The translations under genes were made by a program, and so were the position numbers. 64,000 nt of DNA from Haematobia irritans (taxonomy: Eukaryota; Arthropoda; Insecta; Diptera; Muscidae): NCBI RefSeq assembly GCF_050003625.1, contig NC_134397.1, forward strand, positions 149,605,526 to 149,669,525, in the 5' to 3' direction. Of the stretch, positions 2,690 to 61,262 are shown piece by piece (position 1 is the first letter of the stretch; every line of letters starts with the position of its first letter). The notes under the pieces were generated by a model. It made no database searches, was not told where the DNA came from, and worked only from the letters and a program-made list of their open reading frames with translations.

Positions 2690-4740
2690 GAGTACTTCCG
2701 TCCTATGACAAGCCCGTCTAGAAACTGTATTCCGATTTGCTTGAAATTGAAAATCTAGAAGTATTTTAGGACCATAAAGAGGTGCTTCGAAAAAAGTCCG
2801 TATCGGTCCATGTTTTGGTATAGTCCCCATATAGACCGATCTCCCGATTTTGCTTCTTTGGATTCTAGAAACTGTATTTACCATCCGATTTGCCTGAAAT
2901 TTGAAATCTACAGGTATTCTAGGAGCACAAATAGGTGTGGCGAAAATGGGGCGTAACGGTCCATCTTTTGGTATAGCCCCTATATAGAACGATCTTCCGA
3001 TTTTACTTCTTGGGCTTCTAGAAACTGTATTTACTATCTGATTTGCTTGAAATTAAAAATCTAGAGGTATTTTAGGACCAGAAATTGGTGTGTCGAAAAT
3101 GGCATGTATCGGTCCATGTTTTGGTATGGCCCTCATATAGACCGATCTCCCGATTTTATTTCTTCTGCTTCTAGAAACCGTATTATCAATTCGATTTACC
3201 TGACCGATCTCCCGATTTTACATCTTGGGCTTCTAGAAACTGTATTTACTATCGGATTTGCCTGAAATTAAAAATCTAGAGGTATTTTAAGATCACAAAT
3301 AGGTGTGTCGCAACTGGGGTGTATCGGTCGATCTTTTGGTGTAGCCCCCATATAGACCGATCTCCCGACCTTAATTCTTGGGCTTCTAAAATCCGTAGTT
3401 TTTATCCAATATGCCTGAAGTTGGAACTCTAGAGGTATTTTAGGACCATCACAAGGTGTGCCGAAAATTGTGCTTTTCGGTCTATGTTTTTGGTATAGCC
3501 CCCATATAGACTGATCTCTCGACTATACTTCTTGGGCTTCTATAATTCGTAGTTTTTACCCAGTTTGTCTGAAATTGGAATTCTAGACGTATTTTAGGAC
3601 CATTAAGAGGTGAGTATTGGTCCATGTTTTGGTATAGCCCCAAATATAGACCTAACTCCCGAATTTACTTTTACGATTACTCTAAGAGAAGCAAATTTCA
3701 TCCGATCCGGCTGAAATTTGGTATATGGTGTTAGTATACGGTATCTAACAACCTTGCAAAAATTGGTCCACATCGGTCCATAACTACATATAGCCCCCAT
3801 ACAAACCGATCCCCCGATTTGGCTTGCAGAGCCTCTAAGAGAAGCAAATTTCATCCGATCCGGCTGAAATTTGGTATATGGTGTTAGTATATGGTCTCTA
3901 ATGACCATACAAAAATTGGTCCATATGGGTCCATAATTATATATAGCCCCCATATAAACCGATCACCAGATTTGACCTCCAGAGCCTCTTGGAAGACCAA
4001 AATTCATCTGATTCAGTTGAAATTTGGTACGTGGTGTTAATATATGGCCTCAAACACCCGTGCAAAAATTGGTCGAAATCGGTCAATAATTATATTAGGT
4101 CCCATATAAACCGATCCCCAGATTTGACCTCCGGTGCCTTTTGGAGAAGCAAAATTCATCCGATCTGGTTGAAATTTGGTACGTGGTGGTAGAATGTGAT
4201 ATTTAACAACGATGCCAAAAGTGGTCCATATCAGTCCATAATCATACATACCCCCCATATAAACCGATCCCGAGATTTGGTTTTGGAGCCTCTTGGAGGA
4301 GCAAATTTCATCCGAGTCAGTTGAAATTTGGTACATTGTGCTAGTATATGGCCGTTAACAACCATGCCTAACTATGTCCATATCGGTCTATAGTTATATA
4401 TAGCCCTCAGATAAATCGATCCCCAATCACACAAAAATTGGTCCATATCAAGTTCATAATTCTATATAGCCCCCATATAACCGACCCCCATATTTCAATT
4501 CTGGCTCTCTACGTACCGTGCAAAAGTCCATGTCGATTCGTAATTATTTGTAGACTTACCTATCCATAACTTTTTTGTCTAATATATACCACGTATGGAC
4601 TAACTCACAATTTAGAAAACGATGTTAAGAAGTTTTAAGATACCACAACCCAAGTAATTCGATTGTGGATGACAGTCTTTCCATGGTGGAGGGTACATAA
4701 GATTCGGCCTGGCCGAACTTACGGCTGTATATACTTGTTT
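2690..4740 (-). mobile_element. Mixed HINE-B/HINE-A element (DINE-1-like)
   Basis: From 2690 to about 3660 the tandem units are HINE-B type (GACCGATCTCCCGATTTTACTTCTTGG). From 3662 the units become HINE-A type (CCGATCCGGCTGAAATTTGGTA). The right end is a standard HINE-A terminus: the TTCGGCCTGGCCGAA palindrome at 4703-4717, then ATATACTTGTTT ending at 4740. The left hairpin and (GTCY)n block are missing. Open frames on both strands here are by-products of the roughly 153-bp period. Confidence 0.75.
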
Positions 4741-6772: not shown

Positions 6773-9040
6773 AAACAAGTATATCGGCCGGGCTGAATCT
6801 TAAATACCCACCACCATGAATCAAATATTATAATTTCCAGGGGGGTTTGATGACAGATATTCTCCCAAGCAGAGCCGTTCAACTAGTACACTTCCCGAAG
6901 ATAAATTTAAAGATTTTACCTATGAAGACTATATCAAATTTTGGATTTATAAGAACCATTTTTGTTTGAGTTTTAGAGGAATCATTAACATCTCTTGTAA
7001 GTGTGCTAGAAAATAATGAAATAACATCTTGGATGGAAATCTTAAATCTGTAGATTTTCACCCCCATTATTTAAATGATAACAAGAAGTAAAATATGGAA
7101 ATTTTACATTCAGTTTCAAGCAATTTTCATGATCAGTGCGCCTTCTATACACTCAAGAAATGAAATCTATATGGAGGCCTTAACTAATGGACCGATAAAA
7201 ACTAACTCCGATACACGTTTTTGTGAGTCTAAAATACAATTTCAGGCAAATCGGATAAAAACTACGGTTTCTAGAAACCCAAGTAGATCGAGAGATTGAT
7301 CTTAGTAGGGCTATACTAAAACATGGACCGATACTCACCGTTTTTGGCACACCTGTTTATGGTCCTAAAATACGTTTAGATTTCAAATTGCAGGATAATT
7401 GGATAAAAACTACGGTTTCTAAAATCCCAAACAATAAAATCATTCCTTGCACACCTATTTATAGTTCAGAAAAATTGGACAACAACTACGATTTCTACAA
7501 TCCCAAAAAGTACAATTGGGAGATCGGTATATATGGGGGCTATACCAAAACACTGACCTATACTCACCATTTTCGCCGCAACTCTTTATGGTCGTAAAAT
7601 AATTCTAGATTTAGAATTTCGTGCAAATTGGATAAAAACTACGGTTTCTATAAGCCCAAGAAATAAAATCTGAAGATCGGTTTATATGGGGGATATACAA
7701 AAACATGGACCAATACACGTCATTTTCGGCACACGTATTTGTGGTACTACAATACCTCTAGATTTTCAATTTCAGACAAATTCGATAAAAACTACGGTTT
7801 CTATAAGCCCAAGAAATAAAATCGGGAGATCGGTCTATATGGGGGCTATATCAAATCATTGACCGATACTCATCATTTTTGGCATACTTCTTTAAGGTCC
7901 TAAAATACCTCTAGATTTCAAATTTCAGGCATATTGGATAAAAACTACGTATTCTAGAATCCAAAGAACTAAAATCGGGCGATCGGTCTCTATGGAGGCT
8001 ATACCAAAACATGGACCGATACTCACCATTTTTGGCACACCTTTTTATGGTCCTAAAATACCTCTTGATTTTCAATTTGAGGCAAATTGAATAAAATCTA
8101 CGGTTTCTATAAGTCCAAGAAATGAAATCGGGAGATCGGTCTATATGGGTGCTATACCAAAACATGAACCTATACTCACTATTTTTGGCATACCTCTTTG
8201 TGGTCCTAGAATACCTTTAGATTTCAAATTTCAGCCAAATTGGGTAAAAACTACGGATTCTAGGAGCCCAAGAAGTAAAATTGAGAATTCGGTCTATATG
8301 GGGGCTATACCAAAACATGGACCGATACGCATTATTTCTGGCACACCTCTTTATGGTCCTACAGTAACTCTAGACTTAAAATTTTAGGCAAATTGGATAA
8401 AAACTACGTATTCTAGAAGCCCAAGAAGTAAAATCGGGAGAACGGTCTATATGGGGGCTATACCACAATATGGACCGATACTCACCATTTTTGGCATACC
8501 GCTTTACCTCTAGATTTCAAATTTCAGGTAAATTGGGTAAAAACTACGTATTCTAGAAGCCCAAGAAGTAAAATCGGGAGAACGGTCTATATGGCGGCTA
8601 TACCACAACATGGACCGATACTCACCATTTTTGGCACACCTCTTTATGGTCCTAAAATACCTCTAGATTTCAAATTTTAGGCAAATTGGATAAAAACTAC
8701 AGTCTTTATAAGCTCAAAACCCCAAATCGTGTGGTCGGTTTATATGAGGACTATATCAAAACCTGGACCGATATAGCCCATCTTCGAACTTGACCTGCCT
8801 GCAGACAAAGGACGAGTTTGTGCAAAATTTCAGCACGATTGCTTCATTATTGAAGACTGTAGCGTGATTACAACAGACAGACAGACATACAGACGGACAT
8901 CGTTATATCGTCTTAGAATTTCTCCCTGATCAAGAATATATATACTTTATATAGTCGGAAATTGATATTTCGATGTGTTACAGACGGAATGACAAACTTA
9001 TTATACCACCGTCACCATTCTATGGTGGTGGGTATAAAAA
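6773..9040 (+). mobile_element. HINE-B, near full length (DINE-1/mini-me-like)
   Basis: The left end is AAACAAGTATAT with a GGCCGGGCTGAA palindrome relic. A leader of about 300 bp follows, then tandem units with anchors at 7841, 7994, 8147 and 8300, giving exactly 153 bp spacing. The right part has (GACA/GACG)n at 8873-8895, a TATATACTTTATATAG core and the closing hairpin CACCATTCTATGGTGGTGGGTATAA at 9013-9036. Dipteran mini-me/DINE-1 elements are known for a conserved core between (TA)n and (GTCY)n. Assigning this family to that group is inference. No protein is encoded. Confidence 0.8.
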
Positions 9041-11411: not shown

Positions 11412-13801
11412 TTTTTATACCCTCCATCATAGGATGGGGGTATATTAACTTTGTCATTCCGTTTGTAACACATCGAAATATTGCTCTAAGACCCCATAAA
11501 GTATATATATTCTGGGTCGTGGTGAAATTCTGAGTCGATCTAAGCATGTCCGTCCGTCCGTCCGTCTGTTGAAATCACGCTAACTTCCGAACGAAACAAG
11601 CTATCGACTTGAAACTTGGCACAAGTAGTTGTTATCGATGTAGGTCGGATGGTATTGAAAATGGGCCATATCGCTCCACTTTTACGTATAGCCCCCATAT
11701 AAACCGATCCCCAGATTTGGCTTGTGGAGCCTCTAAGAGAAGCATATTTCATCCGATCCAGCTGAAATTTGGTACATGGTGTTGGTAGATGGTCTCTAAC
11801 AATCGTGCAAAAATTGATCCACATCGGTCCATAATTATATATAGCCCCCATATAAACCGATCCCCAGATTTGGCTTGTGGAGCCTCTAACAGAAGCATAT
11901 TTCATCCGATCGGGCTGAAATTTGGTATATGGTGCTGGTATATGGTCTCTAACAACCATGCAAAAATTGGTCCACATCGGTCCATAATTATATATAGCCC
12001 CCATATAAACCGATCCCCAGATTTGGCTTGTGGAGCCTCTAAGAGAAGCATATTTCATCCGATCCGGCTGAAATTTGGTACATGGTGTTGGTAGATGGTC
12101 TCTAACAATCATGCAAAAATTTGTCCACATCGGTCCATAATTATATATAGGCCCCATATAAACCGAACCCCAGATTTGGCTTGCGGAGCCTCAAAGAGAA
12201 GCAAATTTCATCCGATCCGGCTGAAATTTCGTACATGGTGTTGGTATATGGTCTCTAGCAACCATGCGAAAATTGGTTCACATCGGTCCATAATTATATA
12301 TGGACCCCATATAAACCGATCTCCTGATTTGGCTTGTGAAGCCTCAAAGAGAAGCAAATTGCATCCGATCCGGCTGAAATTTGGTACATGGTATTGGTAT
12401 ATGGTCTCTAACAACTGTGCAAAAATTGTTCCACATCGGTCCATAATTATATATAGCCCCCATATAAACCGATCCCCAGATTTGGCTTGTGGAGCCTCTA
12501 ACAGAAGCATATTTCATCCGATCGGGCTGAAATTTGGTATATGGTGCTGGTATATGGTCTCTAATAACCATGCAAAAATTTGTCCACATCGGTTCATAAT
12601 TATATATAGCCCCCATATAAGCCGATCCCCAGATTTGGCTTGCGAAGTCTCCAAGAGAAGCAAATTTCATCCAATCCGGTTGTAATTTTGAACATGGTGT
12701 TAGTATATGATCTTTAACAACCGTGCCAGAATTGGTCCATATCGGTCCATAATTATATATAGCCCCCATATAAAACTTTCTCCAGATTTGACCTCCGGAG
12801 CCTCTTGGAGGAGCAAAATTCATCCGATCCGATTCAAATTAGGAACGTGGTGTTAGTATATGGTCGCTAACAACCATACAACAATTGGTCCAATCAAACA
12901 AAAATTGGTCCATATCGGTTCATAATCATGGTTGCCACTAGAACCAAAAATAATCTACCAAAATTTTATTTCTATAGAAAATTTTGTCAAAATTTTATTT
13001 CTATAGAAAATTTTGTCAAAATTTTATTTCTATAGAAAATTTTGTCAAAATTTTATTCGGTTCAGAATGAAATGTTCATCATCGTCAAAATGTTATGTCT
13101 ATAGAAAATTTTGTCAAAATTTTATTTCTATAGAAAATTTTGTTCAAATTTTATTCGGTTCATAATCATGGTTGCTGCTCGAGCCAAAAATAATCTACCA
13201 AGATTTTATTTCTATAGAAAATTTTGTCAAAAGTTTATTTCTATAGAAAATTTTGTTACAATTTTATTGCTGTAGAAATTTTTGTCAAAATTTTCTTTCT
13301 ATAGAAAATTTTGTGAACATTTTTATTTCTATAGAAAATTTTGTGAAAATTTTATTTCTATAGAAAATTTTATTTCTGTAGAAATTTTTGTCAAAATTTT
13401 ATTTCTGTAGAAATTTTTGTCAAAATTTTCTTTCTATAGAAAATTTTGTCAAAATTTTTATTTCTATAGAAAATTTTGTGAAAATTTTATTTCTATAGAA
13501 AATGTTGTTAAAATTTTATTTCTGTAGAAAATTTTGTCAAAATTTTATGTCTACTTTATCAAACTGAATTATATACGTATTGGATCGATCTTTTTTGATT
13601 TAATATATACCACGTATGGACTTACATACAATTTAGAAGATGGTGTTAGGAGGTTTTAAGATACCTTGCCATCGGCAAGCGTTACCGCAACTTAAGTAAT
13701 TCGATTGTGGATGGCAGTGTTTAGAAGAAGTTTCTACGCAATCCATGATGGAGGGTACATAAGCTTCGGCCTGGCCGAACTTACGGCCGTATATACTTGT
13801 T
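11412..13801 (-). mobile_element. HINE-A, full length reference copy
   Basis: This is the clearest copy. The hairpin TATACCC...GGGTATA is at 11416-11444. The conserved TTTGTCATTCCGTTTGTAAC block follows, then a GTATATATAT tract and (GTCC)n at 11545-11570. The 153-bp units have anchors at 11691, 11844, 11997 and 12150 and run to about 12860. The 29-bp minisatellite occupies 12957-13556. The terminal segment has the palindrome GGCCTGGCCGAACTTACGGCC and ends ATACTTGTTTT. The order of parts matches known DINE-1-like elements with central tandem repeats. Translated frames (51-residue period, GSVYMGAIYNYGP) are not genes. Confidence 0.85.
12957..13556. repeat. 29-bp minisatellite inside HINE-A
   Basis: About 20 imperfect units contain TTTTCTATAGAAAA alternating with ATTTTGTCAAAAT-type palindromes. 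The array lies between the 153-bp array and the terminus of the element, so it is an internal, expandable part of it. Confidence 0.85.
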
Positions 13802-26611: not shown

Positions 26612-27543
26612 AAGGGTGATTCTTTTGAGGTTAGGATTTTCATGCATTAGTATTTGACAGATCACGTGGGATTTCAGACATGGTGTCAAAGAGAAAGATG
26701 CTCAGTATGCTTTGACATTTCATCATGAATAGACTTACGATCTGCCACAACGTCGAATTTTCAGTGAATGGGCCCTAGAAAAGTTGGCAGAAAATCCGCT
26801 TTTTTATCGACAAATTTTGTTCAGCGATGAGGCTCATTTCTGGTTGAATGGCTACGTAAATAAGCAAAATTGCCGCATTTGGAGTGAAGAGCAACCAGAA
26901 GCCGTTCAAGAACTGCCCATGCATCCCGAAAAATGCACTGTATGGTGTGGTTTGTACGCTGGTGGAATCATTGGACCGTATTTTTTCAAAGATGCTGTTG
27001 GACGCAACGTTACGGTGAATGGCGATCGCTATCGTTCGATGCTAACAAACTTTTTGTTGCCAAAAATGGAAGAACTGAACTTGGTTGACATGTGGTTTCA
27101 ACAAGATGGCGCTACATGCCACACAGCTCGCGATTCTATGGCCATTTTGAGGGAAAACTTCGGAGAACAATTCATCTCAAGAAATGGACCGGTAAGTTGG
27201 CCACCAAGATCATGCGATTTGACGCCTTTAGACTATTTTTTGTGGGCTACGTCAAGTCTAAAGTCTACAGAAATAAGCCAGCAACTATTCCAGCTTTGGA
27301 AGACAACATTTCCGAAGAAATTCGGGCTATTCCGACCGAAATGCTCGAAAAAGTTGCCCAAAATTGGACTTTCCGAATGGACCACCTAAGACGCAGCCGC
27401 GGTCAACATTTAAATGAAATTATCTTCAAAAAGTAAATGTCATGGACCAATCTAACGTCTCAAATAAAGAGCCGATGAGATTTTGCAAATTTTATGCGTT
27501 TTTTTTTAAAAAAAATTTATCAAGCTCTTAACAAATCACCCTT
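26612..27543 (+). mobile_element. mariner-type element, DD41D, 932 bp, defective
   Basis: AAGGGTGATT at 26612-26621 is matched by AATCACCCTT at 27534-27543, with TA on both outer sides (26610-26611, 27544-27545). Inside is a transposase missing its N-terminal DNA-binding part. The TIR, TA target and DDD triad identify the Tc1/mariner superfamily. The spacing suggests the rosa-like DD41D lineage (inference). Confidence 0.9.
26725..27436 (+). pseudogene. DD41D mariner transposase, deleted and frameshifted
   Basis: An ATG at 26725 gives MNRLT; a deletion junction at about 26738/26739 then joins to DLPQRRIFSEWALEK in another frame. The catalytic region is well kept. The first Asp is in LFSDEAHF (codon 26826) and the second in FQQDGATCHTA (codon 27105). 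The third is in SCDLTPLDYFLW (codon 27231), with 41 residues between the second and third Asp. A single-base loss near 27245 shifts the frame just after FLW. The next frame continues GYVKSKVY-like sequence to a stop at 27434-27436. Helix-turn-helix DNA-binding domains are absent. It cannot make active transposase, though the intact termini could be mobilised in trans. Confidence 0.9.
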
Positions 27544-31786: not shown

Positions 31787-32118
31787 CCCCCCTCCATGGA
31801 TTACGTAGAAACTTCTACTAAAGACGGTCATCCACAATTGAATTACTTGGGTTGCGGCCGATGGCAAGGTATCTTAAAATTTATTAACATCATCATCTAA
31901 ATTGTAAGTTGGTCCATGCGGGATATATTAGACAAACAAAAGGTCGTTTAAATATGTATATATACAGTTCTTGACCGGTATATATAGCGAAGAAATAATT
32001 ACGAACCTTGTGTGCGGTAATTACAGAGCCAGAATTAAAGATGTACTGTTTAGTAGAATTCTTGATGTTTTGGAAGATTTTGCAAAATATTCCTCTCCAA
32101 CTAAGAGGTGCTTCATGA

Positions 32119-32420
32119 ATTTCCTATAGAAATAACATTTTGATAAAATTTTCTACAGAAATAAAATTCTGATAAAATTTTCTACAGAAATAAAATTCTG
32201 ACAAAATTGTCTATAAAAATAAAATTTTGACAAAATGTTCTATAAAAATGAATTTTTGACAAAATTTTCTATAGAAATTATATTTTGACAAAATTTCCCA
32301 AAGAAATAAAATGTTGACAAAATTTTCCATAAAAATTTAAATCTTTGGCAAATTTTCTCTAGAAATATAAAATTTTGACATAATTTTCTCTGGCAATAAA
32401 ATTTTGGTAGATTATTTTTG
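32119..32420. repeat. 29-bp minisatellite in HINE-A
   Basis: About ten units of TTTTGACAAAATTTTCTATAGAAATAAAA type occur, diverged, in the position expected for HINE-A. Confidence 0.8.
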
Positions 32421-35564: not shown

Positions 35565-35870
35565 GTCTTTTTCTATAGAAATAAAATTTTTACAAAATTT
35601 TCCATAGAAATAAACTGTCGACAAAATTTTCTATTGAAATAAAATTTGACAAAATTTTTTGTAGAAATAAAATGTTGATAAAATTTTCTAGAGAAATAAA
35701 ATTTTGACCAAATTTTCTATAGAAATAAATTTTTTGATAAAATTTTCTATAGAATTTTTTTTATGTTGACAAAATTTTCTTTAGAAATAAAATGTTAATA
35801 ATTTTCTATAGAAATAACATTTTCACAAAATTTTTCTATAGAAATAACATTTTTACAAAATTTTTTATAG
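35565..35870. repeat. 29-bp minisatellite
   Basis: About ten units occur, continued by short stretches at 36048-36107 and 36473-36690 around inserted fragments. Confidence 0.8.
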
Positions 35871-36047
35871 ATTTACTCGTTTGCGAATAAGTTCATTGTT
35901 CTTTACTTCTAAAAAAATTTCCCTGAAGACGAACATCGGAGTTGTTTCGAAATATTGGATAATATTAAATAAAAATACAACTCAAAAAAACAACAACATC
36001 TGTTTTTATTCATATGACCTCAAGCCGAACTAAACAAATATAATGTT
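35871..36047 (+). other. Non-array insert with a degenerate hammerhead-like phrase
   Basis: CTGAAGA at 35923-35929 and CGAAATATTGG at 35948-35958 resemble the CTGATGA...GAAA framework. The core U is changed to A, and the first pair of the intervening stem would be C-C. It is probably a decayed relative of the element at 36108-36472 or another retroelement end. It is not called a ribozyme. Confidence 0.35.
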
Positions 36048-36107
36048 GATAAAATTTTCTATAAAAATAAAATTTTGACAAAATTTTCTATAGAAATAAA
36101 ATTTTTT

Positions 36108-36472
36108 TTCGGTTTGTTTGTTATTGTTGGCTTCTCTTCAATCGTTATTGTTGTATGCTTGTCAAATTTATTTGGGCAAAGCCCTATAGACTGCAAGATG
36201 GTTGGATGTACAGCTGTTTCGGAATTACCACATTCCTCATCAGCATCCTCTACTTGCAGCAAAACTATCAACCAATTATCAGAATAAATTCGGTTAATTC
36301 ACTCAACCCAAAGAGAACTACACTTGAACCTCCCGAAAAAGGGTTTGATAGTCGGCTACTGCCTAAACAAATTTGCCAGCATATCTCTTTTCCTTTGCCA
36401 AACTCAAATCATCGATTTGAATGTATTTGGCTGGGTTTGTTTTTGAGCGTAAAAAAAAACAACAATAACGAA
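36108..36472 (-). mobile_element. Retroelement fragment carrying a hammerhead, probably Penelope-like
   Basis: A 365-bp block of mixed composition interrupts the 29-bp array (GAAATAAAATTTT | TTTTCGG... | ...AACAATAACG | AAATAAAATTTTG). Its ends contain TTATTGTTG-type words in opposite orientation. It includes the ribozyme at 36191-36259. Penelope-like elements are known to carry hammerhead ribozymes in their terminal repeats. No reverse transcriptase or GIY-YIG endonuclease is present, so the family assignment is inference. Confidence 0.5.
36191..36259 (-). ncRNA. Hammerhead ribozyme, intact core
   Basis: All parts are read on the minus strand. The conserved CTGATGA is at 36243-36237. Stem II GGAAT/ATTCC closes a GTGGTA loop (36236-36221), followed directly by GAAAC (36220-36216). 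The very short stem III is CAGCTG, and the cleavage triplet is GTA (36211-36209). Stem I inner helix GGATG/CATCC is at 36248-36244 with 36208-36204. Its internal loop is TAGA/AACCAT. The outer helix is CTGCAAG/CTTGCAG (36259-36253 with 36197-36191). Predicted cleavage is between 36209 and 36208. Every invariant core position is present. A stem III this short is typical of retroelement hammerheads, which may act as dimers. Confidence 0.88.
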
Positions 36473-36689
36473 ATAAAATTTTGACAAAATTTTCTATAGA
36501 AATAAAATTATGACAACATTTTTTATAGAAATAACATTTTGATAACATTTTCGATAGAAATAAAATTTTGATAAAAATCTTTATAGAAATAAAATTTTCA
36601 CCAAGTTTTCTATAGAAATAAAATTTTGATAAAATTTTCTATAGAAATACAATGTTGATAAAATTTTCTATACAAATAAAATTTTGATA

Positions 36690-36950
36690 AAATATGGCCC
36701 ACTTGCAATACCATCCGACTACATCAATGAAAACTACTTATGCCAAGTTTCAAGTCGATAGCTTGTTTCGTTCGGAAGTTAGCGTGATTTCAACAGACGG
36801 ACGGACGGACATGCTTGGATCGACTCAGAATATCACCACGACCCAGAATATATATACTTTATGGGGTCTTAGAGCAATATTTCGATGTATTACAAACGGA
36901 ATGGCAAAGTTAATATACCCCCTCTTCCTGTGGTGGATGGTATAAAAACA
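36690..36950 (+). mobile_element. HINE-A hairpin-end fragment
   Basis: ATATGGCCCACTTGCAATACC through GACGGACGGACGGAC (36798-36812), CCCAGAATATATATAC and TGTGGTGGATGGTATAAA. This is the last 260 bp of HINE-A without its 153-bp units, joined directly to the 29-bp array. Confidence 0.75.
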
Positions 36951-41582: not shown

Positions 41583-43665
41583 ATAAACCAACACAATTTT
41601 CTACAGAAATAAAATTTTGACATAATTTTCTGTAGAAATAAAATTTTGACAATTTTTTTTATAGAAATAAAATTTTGACATAATTTTCTGTAGAAATAAA
41701 ATTTTGACAATTTTTTTATAGAAATAAAATGTTGACAAAATTTTCTATAGAAATAAAATTTTGAGGAAATTTTCTATAGAAATAACATTTTGACAAAAAT
41801 TTCTATAGAAATAAAATTTTGTCAACATTTTCTATAGAAATAAAATGTTAACAATATTTTCTATAGAAATAAAATTTTGACAATATTTTCTATAGAAATA
41901 AAATTTTGAGAAAATTTTCTATAGAAATAAAATTTTGAGAAAATTTTCTATAGAAATAAAATTTTAACGAAATTTTCTATAGAAAAAAATTGACAAAATT
42001 TTCTATAGAAATACATTTTTTAAGAATTATTTTTCATAGTTTCGGCTATAGGTCGATTAAAAAACATAGATATGATGTTTTTCTTTTATTTTTATTTCCA
42101 ATATTTCGGTTGACTTCGTCAAAACCGTTTTCAAGGATTTTTTTCTGGTGTGCACAGCTTCACACTCTGTTTTATTTCCATAGAAAACTTTATCAAAAAT
42201 TTCAATAAAAATAAAATTTTGACAAAATTTTCTATATAAATAAAATTTTGGCAAATTTATCTATAGAACCACCTATATAAACCAACACAATTTTCTACAG
42301 AAATAAAATTGTGACAAAATTTCCTATAGAAATAAAATGTTGACAAAATTTTTTATAGAACTAAAATTTTGACAAAATTTTATACAGAAATAAAATTTTA
42401 ACAAAAATTTCTATAAAAAAATTGACAAAATTTTCTATAGAAATAAAATTTTGACAAAATTTTCTATAGAAATAAAATGTTGATAAAATTTCCTATGGAA
42501 ATAAAATTTTGATAAAATTTTATACAGAAATAAAATTTTAGCAAAATTTTCTATAAAGAAATGACAAAATTTTCTATAGAAATAAAATTTTGCCAAAATT
42601 TTCTATGGAAATAAAACTTTGACAAAATTTTCAATAAAAATAACATTTTGATACAATTTTCTATAGAAATTAAATTTTGACTAACTTTTCTATAGAAATA
42701 AAATGTTGACAAAATTTTTTATAGAAATAAAATTTTGACAAAATTTTCCGTGGAAATAAAGCATTTACAAAATTTTCAATAAAAATAAAATTTTGATAAT
42801 TTTTTTACAGAAATAAAATTTTAACAAAATTTTCTATAGAAATAAAATTTTGACATAATTTATTATAGAAATAAAATTTTGACAAAATTTTCTGTGGAAA
42901 TAAAACTTTGACAAAATTATCAATAAAAATAAAATTTTGATAATTTTTTTTACAGAAATAAAATTTTAACAATATTTTCTATAGAAAAAAAATTGAAAAA
43001 ATTTTCTATAGAAATAAAACTTTGTCAAAATTTTCTATGGAAATAAAACTTTGTCAAAATTTTCAATAAAAATAAAATTTTGACAAAATTTTCAATAAAA
43101 ATAAAAATTTGGACAAAATTTTCAATAAAAATAAAATTTTGACAAAATTTTTTATAGAAATAAAATTTTGACTAACTTTTATATAGAAATAAAATTTTGG
43201 CAAAATTTTCTATAGAAATAAAATTTTTGCAAAATGTTCTATAGAAATAAAATTTTGGCAAAATTTTCTATAGAAATAAAATTTTGACAAAATTATTGAG
43301 AGATATAAAATTTTGAGAAAATGTTCTATAGAAATAAAATTTTGAGAAAATTTTCTATAGAAATAAAATTTTGACAAAATTTGCAATATAAATAAAATTT
43401 TGACAAAATTTTTAATGCAAATAAAACTTTGAAAAAATTTACAATAGAAATAAAATTTTGACAAAATTTTTATAGAAATAAAATTTTGACAAAATTTTTA
43501 TAGAAATAAAATTTTGACTAACTTTTCCATAGAAATAAAATTTTGACACAATTTTCTATAGAAATAATATTTTGACACAATTTTCTTTAGAAATAAAATT
43601 TTGACAAAATTTTCTATAGAAATAAAATTTTTACAAAATTTTCTATAGAAATAAAATTTAAAAAA
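41583..43665. repeat. 29-bp minisatellite array, 2.1 kb
   Basis: Roughly 65-70 units of ATTTTGACAAAATTTTCTATAGAAATAAA occur with many substitutions and small indels. The array is interrupted at 42020-42187 by non-array DNA containing a palindromic CCAATATTTCGGTTGACTTCGTC phrase. The orientation is opposite to that of the 58200-61262 array. Confidence 0.9.
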
Positions 43666-51385: not shown

Positions 51386-53427
51386 AAAACAAGTATATAC
51401 AGCAGTAAGTTCGGCCGGGCCGAATCTTAAATACCCACCACCATGAACCAAATATTAGGGTGTCCTTTGAAATTTCAGGAGGGCTTGAGGACTTGAGGAC
51501 ACTTCCCCAAGATAAATTTAAAGATTTCATCCATGAGGACTATATCAGATTCTGGATTTATAAGAACCATTTTTGTTTGAGTTTTAGAGGAATCATTAAC
51601 ATCTCTTGTAAGTTTGCAAGAAAATTATAAAATAATGTCTTGATTTGAAATCTTAAATCTGTAGAAGTAAAATCTGGAAATTTTACATTGAGTTTCAAGC
51701 AATTTTCATCATCAGTGCGCCTTCTACACCCTCAAGAAGTGAAGTCGGTCTATATGGAGGCATTACCAAATGGACCTATAAAAACCTAATCCGATACACG
51801 TTATTGTGAGCCTAAAATACCAGAATATTTACAATTTCAGGCAAATCAGATAAAAACTACGGTTTCTAGAAACCCAAGGAGTTAAATCGGGAGATCGTTC
51901 TTATGGGGGCTATACTGAAATATGGACCAATGCTCACCGTTTTCGGCACACCTCTTTATGACCCGAAAATACCTCTAGATTTCCAATTTCAGGCAAATAG
52001 GATTAAAAATTTCGGATTCTAGAAGCCCAAGAAGTAAAATCGGGAAATCGGTCTATGTGGGGGCTATACCAAAATATGGACCGATCCTCACCATTTTCGG
52101 CACACTTCTTTATGGTCCTAAAATACCTCTAGATTTCCAATTTCAGACAAATTGGATAAAAAATAAGGTTTCTATAAGCCCAAGACCCCAAATCGGGAGG
52201 TCGTTTTATATGGGGAACATACCAAAACATGGACCGATACTCACAATTTTTGGCACACGTATTTGTGGTCCTACAATACCTCTAGATTTCCAATTTCCGG
52301 TAAATTGAATAAAAACTGCGATTTCTATAAGCCAAAGAAGTAAAATCGGGAGATGGGTCTTTATGGGGGCTATACCAAAATATGGACCGATACTCACAAT
52401 TTTTGGCACACGTAATTGTGGTCCTACAATACCTCTAGATTTCCATTTTCAGGTAAATTGAATAAAAACTGCGGTTTCTATAAGCCCAAGAAGTAAAATC
52501 GGGAGATCGGTCTATATGGGGGCTGTACCAAAATATGGACCGATACTCACCATTTTTGGCACACGTATTTGTGGTCCTACAATACCTCTAGATTTCTAAT
52601 TTCAGGTAAATTGAATAAAAACTGCGGTTTCTATAAGCCCAAGAAGTAAAATCGGGACATCGGTCTCTATGGGGGCTATACCGATACTCACCATTTTTGG
52701 CACACCTCTTTATGGTCCAAAAATACTTCCAGATTTCCAATTTCAGGCAAATTGGATAAAAGCTACGGTTTCTATAAGCCCAATACCCCAAATCGGGAGG
52801 TCGGTTTATATGGGGACCCTACCAAAACATTGACCGATGCTCATCGTTTTTGGCACACCTCTTTATGGTTCTAAAATACCTCTAGATTTCCAATTTCTGG
52901 TAAATTGAATAAAAAGTGCGGATTCTAGAAGCCCAAGAAGTAAAATCGGGAGATCGGTCTATGTGGGAGCTATGCCAGAACCTGGACCGATACTCACCAT
53001 TTTTGGCACACCTCTTTACGGTCACAAAATACCTCCAGATTTCAAATTTCAGGCAAATTGGATAAAAACTACGGTTTCTATAAGCCCAAGACCCCAAATC
53101 GGGAGGTCGGTTTATATGGGGACTATATCAAAACCTGGACCGATACAGCCCATCTTCGAACTTGACCTGCCTGCAGACAAAAGACGAGTTTGTGCAAAAT
53201 TTCAGCACGATTGCTTCATTATTGAAGACTGTAGCGTGATTACAACAGACAGACAGACAGACAGACAGACAGACGGACAGACGGACATCGTTATATCGTC
53301 TTAGAATTTCTCCCTGATCAACAATATATATACTTTATATAGTCGGAAATCGATATTTCGATGCGTTACAAACGGAATGACAAACTTATTATACCCCCGT
53401 CACCATTCTATGGTGGTGGGTATAAAA
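51386..53427 (+). mobile_element. HINE-B, full length
   Basis: AACAAGTATATACAGCAGTAAG is followed by the palindrome TTCGGCCGGGCCGAA, a leader, about nine units of roughly 153 bp and (GACA)n/(GACG)n at 53248-53287. The hairpin CACCATTCTATGGTGGTGGGTATAA closes at 53427. It is uninterrupted, so it is the best HINE-B reference. Confidence 0.85.
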
Positions 53428-58199: not shown

Positions 58200-61100
58200 A
58201 TCGCCACAAATAATCTAACAAATTTTGTTTTTATAGAAAATTTTGTCAAAATTTTATTACTATAGAACATTTTTTCAAAATTTTATTTCTATAGAAAATT
58301 TTGTCAAAATTGTATTTCTTTAGAAAATTTTGGCAAAATTTTATTTTTGTAGAATTTTTTTTTTTTTCAAAATTTTATTTCTATAGAAAATTTTGTCAAA
58401 AAATTATTTCTATAGAAAATTTTATCAAAATTTTATTTCTATAGAAAATTTTGTCAAAATTTTATTTCTATAGAAAATTTGGTTAAAATTTTATTTCTAT
58501 AGAAAATTTTGTCAAAATTTTATTACATAGAAAATTTATCAAAACTTTATTTCTATAGAAAATTTTGTCAATATTTTATGTCTATAGAAAATTTTGCCAA
58601 CATTTTATTTCTATAGAAAATTTATCAAAATTTTATTTCTATAGAAAATTTTGTCAAAATTTTATGTCTATAGAAAATTTTGTCAAAATTGTATTTCTTT
58701 AGAAAATTTTGTCAGAATTGTATTTCTATAGAAAATGTTGTCAAAATTTAATTTCTTTAGAAAATTTTGTCAAAATTTTATGTCTATAGAAAATTTTGTC
58801 GAAATTGTATTTCTTTAGAAAATTTTGTCAGAATTGTATTTCTATAGAAAATTTTGTCAAAATTTCATTTATGTAGAATATTTTGTCAATATTTTATTTC
58901 TATAGAAAATTTTGTCAAAATTTTGTTTTTATAGAAAATTTTGTCAAAATTTTATTACTATAGAACATTTTTTCAAAATTTTATTTCTATAGAAAAATTT
59001 GTCAAAATTGTATATTTTAGAAAATTTTGGCAAAATTTTATTTCTGTAGATTTTTTTTTCAAAATTTTATTTCTATAGAAAATTTTGTCAAAAAATTATT
59101 TCTATAGAAAATTTTATCAAAATTTTATTTCTATAGAAAATGTTGTCAAAATTTTATTTCTATAGAAAATTTTGTCAAAATTTTATTTCTGTAGAAAATT
59201 TGGTCAAAATTTTATTTCTATAGAAAATTTTGCCAAAATTTTATTTCTATAGAAAATTTATCAAAACTTTATTTCTATAGAAAATTTTGTCAATATTTTA
59301 TGTCTATAGAAAATTTTGCCAACATTTTATTTCAATGGAAAATTTATCAAAATTTTATTTCTATAGAACATTTTTTCAAAATTTTATTTCTATAGAAAAT
59401 TTTGTCAAAATTGTAGTTCTTTAGAAAATTTTGGCAAAATTTTATTTCTGTAGAAATTTTTTTTTCAAAATTTTATTTCTATAGAAAATTTTGTCAAAAA
59501 ATTATTTCTATAGAAAATTTTATCAAAATTTTATTTCTATAGAAAATGTTGTCAAAATTTTATTTCTATAGAAAATTTTGTCAAAATTTTATTTCTATTG
59601 AAAATTTGGTCAAAATTTTATTTCTATAGAAAATTTTATCAAAATTTTATTTCTATAGAAAATTTTGTCAAAATTTTATTTCTATAGAAAATTTTGTCAA
59701 AATTTTATTTCTATAGAAAATTTGGTCAAAATTTTATTTCTATAGAAAATTTTATCAAAATTTTATGTCTATAGAAAATTTTGTCAAAATTGTATTTCTT
59801 TAGAAAATTTTGTCAGAATTGTATTTCTATAGAAAATGTTGTCAAAATTTTATTTCTATAGAAAATTTTGTCAAAATTTTATGTCTATAGAAAATTTTGT
59901 CGAAATTGCATTTCTTTAGAAAATTTTGTCAGAATTGTATTTCTATAGAAAATGTTGTCAAAATTTTATTTATGTAGAATATTTTGTCAATATTTTATTT
60001 CTATAGAAAATTTTGTCAAAATTTTATTTATGTAGAATATTTTGTCAAAATTTTATTTCTATAGAAAATTTTGTCAAAATTTTATTTCTATAGAAAATTT
60101 TGTCAAAATTTTATTTCTATAGAAAATTTTGTCAAAATTTTATTTCTATAGAAAATTTTGTCAAAATTTTTTTTCTATAGAAAATTTTGTCAAAATTTTA
60201 TTTCTAAAGAAAATTTTGTCAAAATTTTATTTCTATAGAAAATTTTGCCAAAATTTTATTTCTATAGAAAATTTATCAAAATTTTATTTCTATAGAAAAT
60301 TTTGTCAAAATTTTATGTCTATAGAAAATTTTGTCAAAATTGTATTTCTTTAAAAAATTTTGTCAGAATTGTATTTCTATAGAAAATGTTGTCAAAATTT
60401 TATTTCTATAGAAAATTTTGTCAAAATTTTATGTCTATAGAAAATTTTGTCGAAATTGTATTTCTTTAGAAAATTTTGTCAGAATTGTATTTCTATAGAA
60501 AATTTTGTCAAAATTTTATTTATGTAGAATATTTTGTCAATATTTTATTTCTATAGAAAATTTTGTCAAAATTTTATTTATGTAGAATATTTTGTCAAAA
60601 TTTTATTTCTATAGAAAATTTTGTCAAAATTTTATTTCTATAGAAAATTTTGTCAAAATTTTATTTCTATAGAAAATTTTGTCAAAATTTTATTTCTATA
60701 GAAAATTTTGTCAAAATTTTTTTTCTATAGAAAATTTTGTCAAAATTTTATTTCTATAGAAAATTTTGTCAAAATTTTATTCCTATAGAATTTTTTGTCA
60801 AAATTTTTTTTCTGTAGAAAATTTTGTCAAAATTTTATTTCTATAGAAAATTTTGTTAAAATTTTATTTCTATAGAAAATTTTGTCAAAATTTTATTTCT
60901 AAGGCAAATCTTGTCAATATATTATTTCTATAGAAAATTTTGTCAAAATTTTATTTCTATAGAAAATTTTGTTGAAATTTTATTTCTATAGAAAAATTTG
61001 TCAAAATTTTATTTCTAAGGCAAATCTTGTCAATATATTATTTCTATAGGAAATTTTGTCAAATTTTATTTCTATAGAAAATTTTGTCAAAATTTTATTT

Positions 61101-61262
61101 CTATAGAAAATGTTGTCAAAATTTTATTTCTATAGAAAATTTTGTCAAAATTGTATTTCTATACAAAATTTTGTCAAAATTTTATTTTTATAGAAAATTT
61201 TGTTTAAATTTTATTTATATAGAAAATTTTGTCAAAATTTTATTCCTATAGAATGTTGTCAA
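58200..61262. repeat. 29-bp minisatellite array, 3.1 kb
   Basis: About 105 units of ATTTTGTCAAAATTTTATTTCTATAGAAA occur. For example, successive ATAGAAA at 60061 and 60090 are exactly 29 bp apart. Many neighbouring units are identical, and a higher-order block of several units with GTATTTCTTTAGAAAA and ATGTCTATAG variants recurs. This is much more uniform than the other arrays, so it is probably the youngest expansion. Frames such as SKFYFYRKFCQNF are by-products. Confidence 0.93.

Follow-up and report, generated by a model that had tools for sequence, protein, structure and literature searches.

The block at approximately 36108–36471 of the window, by which we mean the whole 64,000-nucleotide stretch of Haematobia irritans DNA that was analyzed, belongs to a high-copy element and represents a single copy of it. 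With its tandem unit of 427 nt and its lack of a long reading frame, this element is a metazoan-type retrozyme, likely one that was mobilized by Penelope-like elements (PLEs) and is not itself a PLE. We consider it highly probable that the data as a whole are best explained by insertion of a non-autonomous retrozyme whose multimeric transcript is cleaved as a dimer and whose insertion is driven by PLEs. The insertion footprint described here points to candidate machinery for the spread of animal retrozymes.

The minus strand carries a hammerhead motif that reads CTGCAAG-TAGA-GGATG-CTGATGA-GGAAT-GTGGTA-ATTCC-GAA-ACAGCTGT-A/CATCC-AACCAT-CTTGCAG, where the slash marks the predicted cleavage site and position n of the RNA corresponds to 36260 − n in window coordinates (Table 1). 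Helices I and II are perfect, helix I is open, all helices are in register with the core, and every residue of the type I core as listed in the available text of PMC3088659 (C3 U4 G5 A6 N7 G8 A9, G12 A13 A14, A15-U16, and H17) is present. Reading the sequence in this way bore out the original prediction of a complete hammerhead with all parts in register on this strand, its minimal stem III, which is a tiny helix formed by an 8-nt palindrome that points to dimeric cleavage, and, from the motif layout, its expected cleavage position between 36209 and 36208. Both strands of the window were searched with a descriptor (CTGANGA, GAA, A15.1-U16.1, H17, and minimum lengths of 4 bp for each of stems I and II and 2 bp for helix III), which matched once, at the motif. 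The same descriptor, which took in the inner stems and left the outer 7-bp helix of stem I outside, matched 20 times in 2025 Markov-1 resampled windows with stems of at least 4 and 4 bp, and one of these 20 matches had stems of at least 5 and 5 bp. That single match, together with the chance matches that large genomes contain, is what speaks for a hammerhead-like hairpin assembled by chance in AT-rich DNA, an explanation to which we assign a negligible probability and which we rejected on the genome copies and subfamilies: the motif belongs to a high-copy family and is retained in two subfamilies, and we consider the copies to have refuted a chance origin already.

The covariance-model check that had been proposed for the motif came out negative, as Rfam 15 gave no hammerhead match at the gathering threshold over the whole window and no hammerhead family even at E ≤ 10 on 501 nt or 81 nt, in searches run without a positive control. 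This miss is not fully explained, and an Rfam match is a criterion of detection rather than a biochemical one. We hold the negative result to be outweighed by the genome copies and the subfamily comparison, and we accept the motif, on sequence grounds, as a real hammerhead because its core is retained in genome copies and the differences between subfamilies are confined to tolerant positions. A control hammerhead pattern had 0 matches in viral_contigs, an exact 22-mer had 0 matches in viral_contigs and 0 in genome_contigs, and a tRNA scan was empty.

Table 1. Window coordinates of the hammerhead, the retrozyme copy, and the adjacent PLE fragment, with the basis of each assignment
Feature	Position	Strand	Basis
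69-nt motif of a type I hammerhead ribozyme	36191–36259	−	Sequence; sole descriptor match in window; genome copies
Stem I, outer, 7 bp	36253–36259/36191–36197	−	Sequence
Stem I, internal loop, 4/6 nt	Between outer and inner stem I	−	Sequence
Stem I, inner, 5 bp	36244–36248/36204–36208	−	Sequence
CTGATGA core	36237–36243	−	Sequence
Stem II, 5 bp, 6-nt loop	36232–36236/36221–36225	−	Sequence
GAA core	36218–36220	−	Sequence
Helix III, ACAGCTGT	36210–36217	−	Sequence
Helix III as 8-nt palindrome, ACAGCUGU	36210–36217	−	Sequence; dimer and tandem folds; ACGUGCGU in older subfamily
H17 = A	36209	−	Sequence; predicted cleavage site 36209/36208
Retrozyme unit 186–427, 5'-truncated upstream unit ending at cleavage site	36209–36450	−	Alignment to L027:1316–1742
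Retrozyme unit 1–56, start of next unit	36153–36208	−	Alignment to L027:1316–1742
Retrozyme unit 123–169, AC-rich 3' region with both 3'-end sites	36108–36154	−	Unit alignment; 3'-end counts
Very short second arm, head to head; inverted 3'-tail piece (~unit 120–135)	36451–36471	+	Inverted repeat
Left target-site duplication, GAAATAAAATTTT	36093–36105		13-bp repeat; minisatellite itself could supply it
Right target-site duplication, GAAATAAAATTTT	36470–36482		13-bp repeat; minisatellite itself could supply it
3'-terminal PLE fragment (pLTR, L076 type)	35896–36043	+	86.7% match of L076 pLTR to 35896–36058
Hammerhead-like motif of PLE fragment: CTGAAGA + 1 nt + stem II + GAAATATT	35916–35961	+	Sequence, by eye

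Within the window the block at 36105–36475 had no second copy (short matches only). Searching the genome (1.17 Gb) with the block returned 754 first-look candidates, and an older copy used as the query returned 2021, the best 40 being scored in each case. Tandem 427-bp units were seen, for example, in loci L027, with three successive ribozymes, and L038, with three junctions, and L027:1316–1742 was taken as the reference unit. The longest stop-free frames of the tandem unit are 58 aa in the sense and 76 aa in the antisense direction, and its GC content is 38%. In being non-coding, tandemly repeated, a few hundred bp long, and equipped with a type I hammerhead, it belongs with the metazoan non-LTR retrozymes. 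A 137-aa frame spanning the window copy includes minisatellite sequence. The 365-bp block had been proposed to be a PLE, of which the connection to PLEs stood, through the insertion marks given below, and the assignment of the block itself did not: it is a 427-nt retrozyme-type element, we rejected it as a PLE for lack of an ORF or reverse-transcriptase frame, and the reverse transcriptase and GIY-YIG ORF of an autonomous PLE are found in the separate elements L074–L077. In RNA sense, the window copy runs from unit 186 to 427, across the cleavage junction, through unit 1–56, and then through 123–169, with 57–122 absent, and it contains a 13-nt inverted repeat (36142–36154/36459–36471).

The original description of the surroundings as a repeat desert was unfit, as the block is flanked by arrays of a 29-bp AT-rich minisatellite. 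Arrays of this minisatellite lie, for example, at 12959–13553, 32118–32406, 35569–35871, 36470–36693, 41591–43659, and 58220–61253, and are a preferred insertion place of both the retrozyme and the PLE family examined. The window also holds many scattered arrays of a tandem repeat of approximately 153 bp (e.g., 2731–3203, 3686–4425, 7465–8773, 11687–12892, and 51811–53146) and, at 26733–27389 on the plus strand, a 218-aa stop-to-stop frame that gave the impression, from its sequence only, of a Tc1/mariner-type transposase.

Helix III closes poorly within a single ribozyme and is well formed only as a palindrome between two. The minimum free energy (MFE) fold of the monomer (−22.1 vs −16.8 kcal/mol for the active fold) preserves stem II and the greater part of stem I and lacks the active junction, such that the hammerhead fold is not favored. 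The predicted MFE folds of the homodimer and of a 496-nt cis-tandem transcript are both double hammerheads with an 8-bp helix III, which arose unprompted. Given the palindromic helix III, the ribozyme should cut as a dimer; the predicted energy gain on dimerization is ordinary, being equaled by 167 of 200 shuffles, and is no evidence for the dimer. The 427-nt circle has a predicted energy of −130.5 vs −90.5 (sd 5.7) for its shuffles (z = −7.0, 0 of 100 as stable), and the circle of the complementary strand is less stable (−105.9). With 64% of its residues paired, the predicted circle is a highly self-paired RNA of the kind expected of retrozymes. The ribozyme junction is non-active in this predicted circular fold, and a stem-loop predicted at ~unit 101–148 has an AC-rich loop that contains the first 3'-end site.

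The proposed genome search for further copies uncovered a high-copy family, and the complete core is retained in 101 of 115 near-full-length copies, a few of which are truncated at the outer stem. These 115 remained of 120 copies in non-overlapping loci once five had been dropped that showed over 8 differences outside helix III. Helix III and H17 read ACAGCTGT followed by A in 67 of the 115 and ACGTGCGT followed by C in 38, both octamers being fully self-complementary when G-U pairs are counted, and self-complementarity is retained in the helix III of the older subfamily, ACGUGCGU. A comparison of the two subfamilies, with 75 and 45 aligned copies, covered 419 positions and showed differences at 38. 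Of these, 33 lie beyond the 69-nt ribozyme, and the 5 within it all fall in helix III or at H17. Four of the latter are differences by construction, the subfamilies having been split by positions 421–424, and the constancy of the other ribozyme positions, H17 excepted, is not by construction. The positions flanking the ribozyme are likewise conserved, and the protected stretch is thus wider than the motif. In the predicted circular fold, 7 pairs are disrupted by the fixed differences vs 15.6 expected (0 of 2000 random placements broke as few), and compensatory cells among them number 6 vs 1.1 expected (p = 0.01). We saw no selection on single copies, as the mutation rate of the core within subfamilies equals that of the rest (5/792 vs 32/4176 in one and 9/473 vs 51/2494 in the other), an unprotected state that is expected for dead copies.

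These counts bear on whether the block is no more than a SINE or inverted-repeat element of the ordinary structured type, with a fortuitous or long-dead hammerhead, which would account for the missing Rfam match, the inactive monomer fold, and the core left unprotected within subfamilies. We judge it very improbable, given that all core residues are retained in so large a share of the copies, that the ribozyme varies between subfamilies only where a hammerhead tolerates variation while 33 sites changed elsewhere, and that young copies deviate by 0.8% from their majority.

The insertion footprint of the retrozyme was examined in the best-scoring copies rather than in a random sample. Five overlapping loci (L008, L027, L044, L058, and L066) and one representing another gene (L031) were left out of the array, core, subfamily, minisatellite-flank, and duplication counts. 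Arrays of under 100 nt and arrays interrupted by the end of a locus were excluded from the array counts, resulting in 106 arrays from 67 non-overlapping loci. The 5' ends of these arrays are scattered. The 3' ends fall at unit 126–142 in 30 arrays and at 160–178 in 57, where 8% would be expected if they were uniform, forming two clusters approximately 37 nt apart at AC-rich sites; taken singly, the most frequent positions are 173, 132, and 169, in a tally that includes the overlapping L044, L058, and L066. The ribozyme junction is crossed in 94 of the 106 arrays, from which it follows that their templates were multimers or circles, and two or more junctions are present in 19. Six arrays began at unit 1, comprising three broken alignments whose upstream letters match the unit end, one ambiguous case, and two clean ones, so that two (perhaps three) of the 106 have a run-off end exactly at the cleavage site; such arrays hint weakly at a cleaved template. 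Where arrays of opposite orientation adjoin, they form head-to-head pairs (30 cases), with no tail-to-tail pair among them. An inverted-repeat DNA transposon was rejected on the scattered 5' ends and internal junctions.

When the copies were grouped in a slightly different way, 80 insertions were counted, 31 with two arms and 49 with one; among the one-armed insertions only two, the window copy and L024, bear a very short inverted tail. Duplications of at least 9 bp (9–15 bp) flank 14 of the 31 two-armed insertions (mean of 4.5 with permuted flanks, 0 of 1000 permutations with as many), and the other 17 lack a 9-bp duplication; across all 79 insertions there are 26 with at least 9 bp, against a permuted mean of 8.6 and a maximum of 17 in 200 permutations. 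The 29-bp minisatellite occurs within a 100-bp flank of 56 of 81 insertions, the corresponding share being 15% for points placed at random in the window and 25% for points 700–1200 bp away, and 58 of 87 retrozyme 3' junctions map within it, mostly near GAAATAAAATTTTG. The copies examined resemble PLE insertions, the head-to-head or partial tandem arrangement, optional tail, and short duplications of PLEs being found in part of them. Two loci, L037 and L038 (G000:C1, ~107.44 and ~107.43 Mb), hold retrozyme arrays approximately 12 kb apart with the same flanks over the 22–24 nt compared, one with one ribozyme junction and the other with three, which represents either a duplication or a post-insertion change in the number of units.

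A search of the same genome with a reverse-transcriptase stretch found 767 PLE candidates, of which the best 150 were scored (top identity 52%, stop-free frames of up to 901 aa). Among these 150, neighbors within 6 kb are head to head in 14 cases, tail to tail in none, and on the same strand in 4. Four PLEs (L074–L077) have stop-to-stop frames of 842–879 aa; RVT_1 was detected at E of about 1e-10 in all three that were scanned, and GIY-YIG in the C-terminus of two (E = 2.5e-4 and 2.2e-3, scores that fall short of the curated cut-off), with no Pfam GIY-YIG match in the third. A genome-wide Pfam search for GIY-YIG yielded as its sole match an SLX1-like gene, as judged by neighboring frames, and misses the resident PLEs, and a PDB sequence search with one PLE gave one weak match (E = 0.0039). 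The 3' ends of one PLE family were taken from 16 stretches, of which two had no match and one runs into the next unit; of the 13 counted, 11 lie at one site and 2 at a second site 35 nt further, at distances of 88 and 123 nt, respectively, from the presumed cut. Ten of the 13 adjoin the same 29-bp minisatellite as the retrozyme, four of them near AGAAATAAAATTTTG.

A fragment from the same PLE family also lies 65 bp from the retrozyme copy in the window; the last ~15 bases of the L076 pLTR match are minisatellite-like, and we place the PLE end at 36043. By eye, one additional nucleotide seems to separate CUGANGA from stem II in the motifs of L074–L077 and of the window fragment (35923–35956), and these motifs seem to end in GAAAUAUU, with CAGAAGA in L074. 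These hammerhead-like motifs differ by eye from that of the retrozyme, and they had no Rfam match. Sequence comparison of the four PLEs with the retrozyme found nothing significant in common (best E = 0.22), so the comparison identifies no particular PLE and the pairing rests on behavior, not homology. The retrozyme footprint agrees with that of the local PLEs in three ways, namely, an exclusively head-to-head arrangement, 3' sites 35–37 nt apart, and the minisatellite target, and this agreement brings the question of the partner within reach of a test that uses a single PLE protein and a single RNA.

LINEs also show 5' truncation and target duplications. Mobilization of the retrozyme by a LINE-type reverse transcriptase, with inverted copies arising by twin priming, is compatible with both features and with the lack of significant sequence in common between the retrozyme and the PLEs, the elements that our survey covered. 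Twin priming inverts the 5' part of an insertion and yields no second tail. The adjacent inverted pairs, in contrast, are head to head in 30 of 30 cases, and one of the two 3' ends is present in 87 of the 106 arrays, meaning that the outer ends are usually both 3' tails. The start sites 37 nt apart and the AT-rich targets further resemble those of the local PLEs and, in the part of that paper available, of an Anolis PLE (PMC11167929). We therefore regard mobilization by LINEs as unlikely.

Under PLE mobilization, transcription of the element would yield a multimer whose 427-nt RNA units are strongly self-paired and in which neighboring ribozymes would pair through the palindromic helix III and be cut as a double hammerhead, releasing units that are probably closed into circles. 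A PLE reverse transcriptase/endonuclease would then cut both strands of AT-rich DNA, often the 29-bp minisatellite, with a stagger of 9–15 bp. Copying would start inside the RNA at an AC-rich site approximately 132 or 169 nt beyond the cleavage point, proceed through the ribozyme junction, and stop at scattered places, and extension of both target strands would join two cDNAs head to head. More generally, we lean towards the proposal that animal retrozymes are parasites of PLEs, in that their circles may carry a PLE-type internal start signal, in the form of a pair of AC-rich sites that follow the ribozyme at a spacing of ~37 nt, and be inserted by the reverse transcriptase/endonuclease of PLEs into both strands at a staggered AT-rich cut, with a dimer-only hammerhead that would cut multimers and spare monomer circles.

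In the parts of the literature available to us, the metazoan retrozyme class and its insect carriers were known beforehand, and mobilization by PLEs and origin by PLE reduction had been proposed; the insertion footprint and the idea that a dimer-only ribozyme spares circles are added here. Our literature search recognized no report of a hammerhead or retrozyme from a muscid fly among full texts covered in part, and the abstract openings of papers since 2020 that join "retrozyme" and "Penelope" describe no such footprint. In the sections available, PLEs are called a strong candidate partner of animal retrozymes (PMC7229834), are likewise proposed as partner (PMC7761336), and are proposed both as partner and, through reduction, as the origin of retrozymes (PMC11722881). 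The ribozyme in circles is considered in PMC7229834, as excerpted, to be probably blocked by some mechanism, and a dimer-only ribozyme might explain how unit circles avoid being re-cut.

Metazoan non-LTR retrozymes, as described in the available text of PMC7229834, have a GC content below 50% and units of 170–400 nt and count insects among their carriers. The element described here has in common with them the type I hammerhead, the lack of a long frame, the low GC content, a tandemly repeated unit measuring a few hundred bp, a self-paired circular fold, and coexistence with PLEs, and differs in a unit slightly above that range and in arrays that, at the loci examined, are dispersed and of up to approximately three or four units rather than long. 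It shares a weak helix III with the type I hammerheads of newts and Aedes. Dimer use has been reported for newt hammerheads, whose copies, unlike ours, come from satellite DNA (PMC6155905, in part). For Aedes, the available text of PMC3088659 describes a palindromic helix III able to pair two ribozymes and proposes dimer use, and the example showed no cleavage in the reported assay.

The retrozyme repeats treated in the accessible portion of PMC7761336 show no conserved motif that would help deduce their autonomous partner, whereas the element described here has a PLE-like insertion footprint. The Anolis PLE PAc cuts an AT-rich target, extends both strands, and uses internal AC-rich start sites, its optional 30–40 bp tail being the stretch between two such sites (PMC11167929, in part), and bdelloid rotifer Penelope elements have head-to-head pLTRs, duplications of 9–10 bp in the cases shown, and a 31-bp tail (PMC3846280, in part). 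The retrozyme lacks an ORF and has a canonical core with a palindromic helix III, unlike the PLE motif ending in GAAATATT, and it has in common with these PLEs the internal AC-rich start, the optional 30–40 bp tail, the AT-rich target, two-strand extension, head-to-head copies, short duplications, and a hammerhead upstream of the start site.
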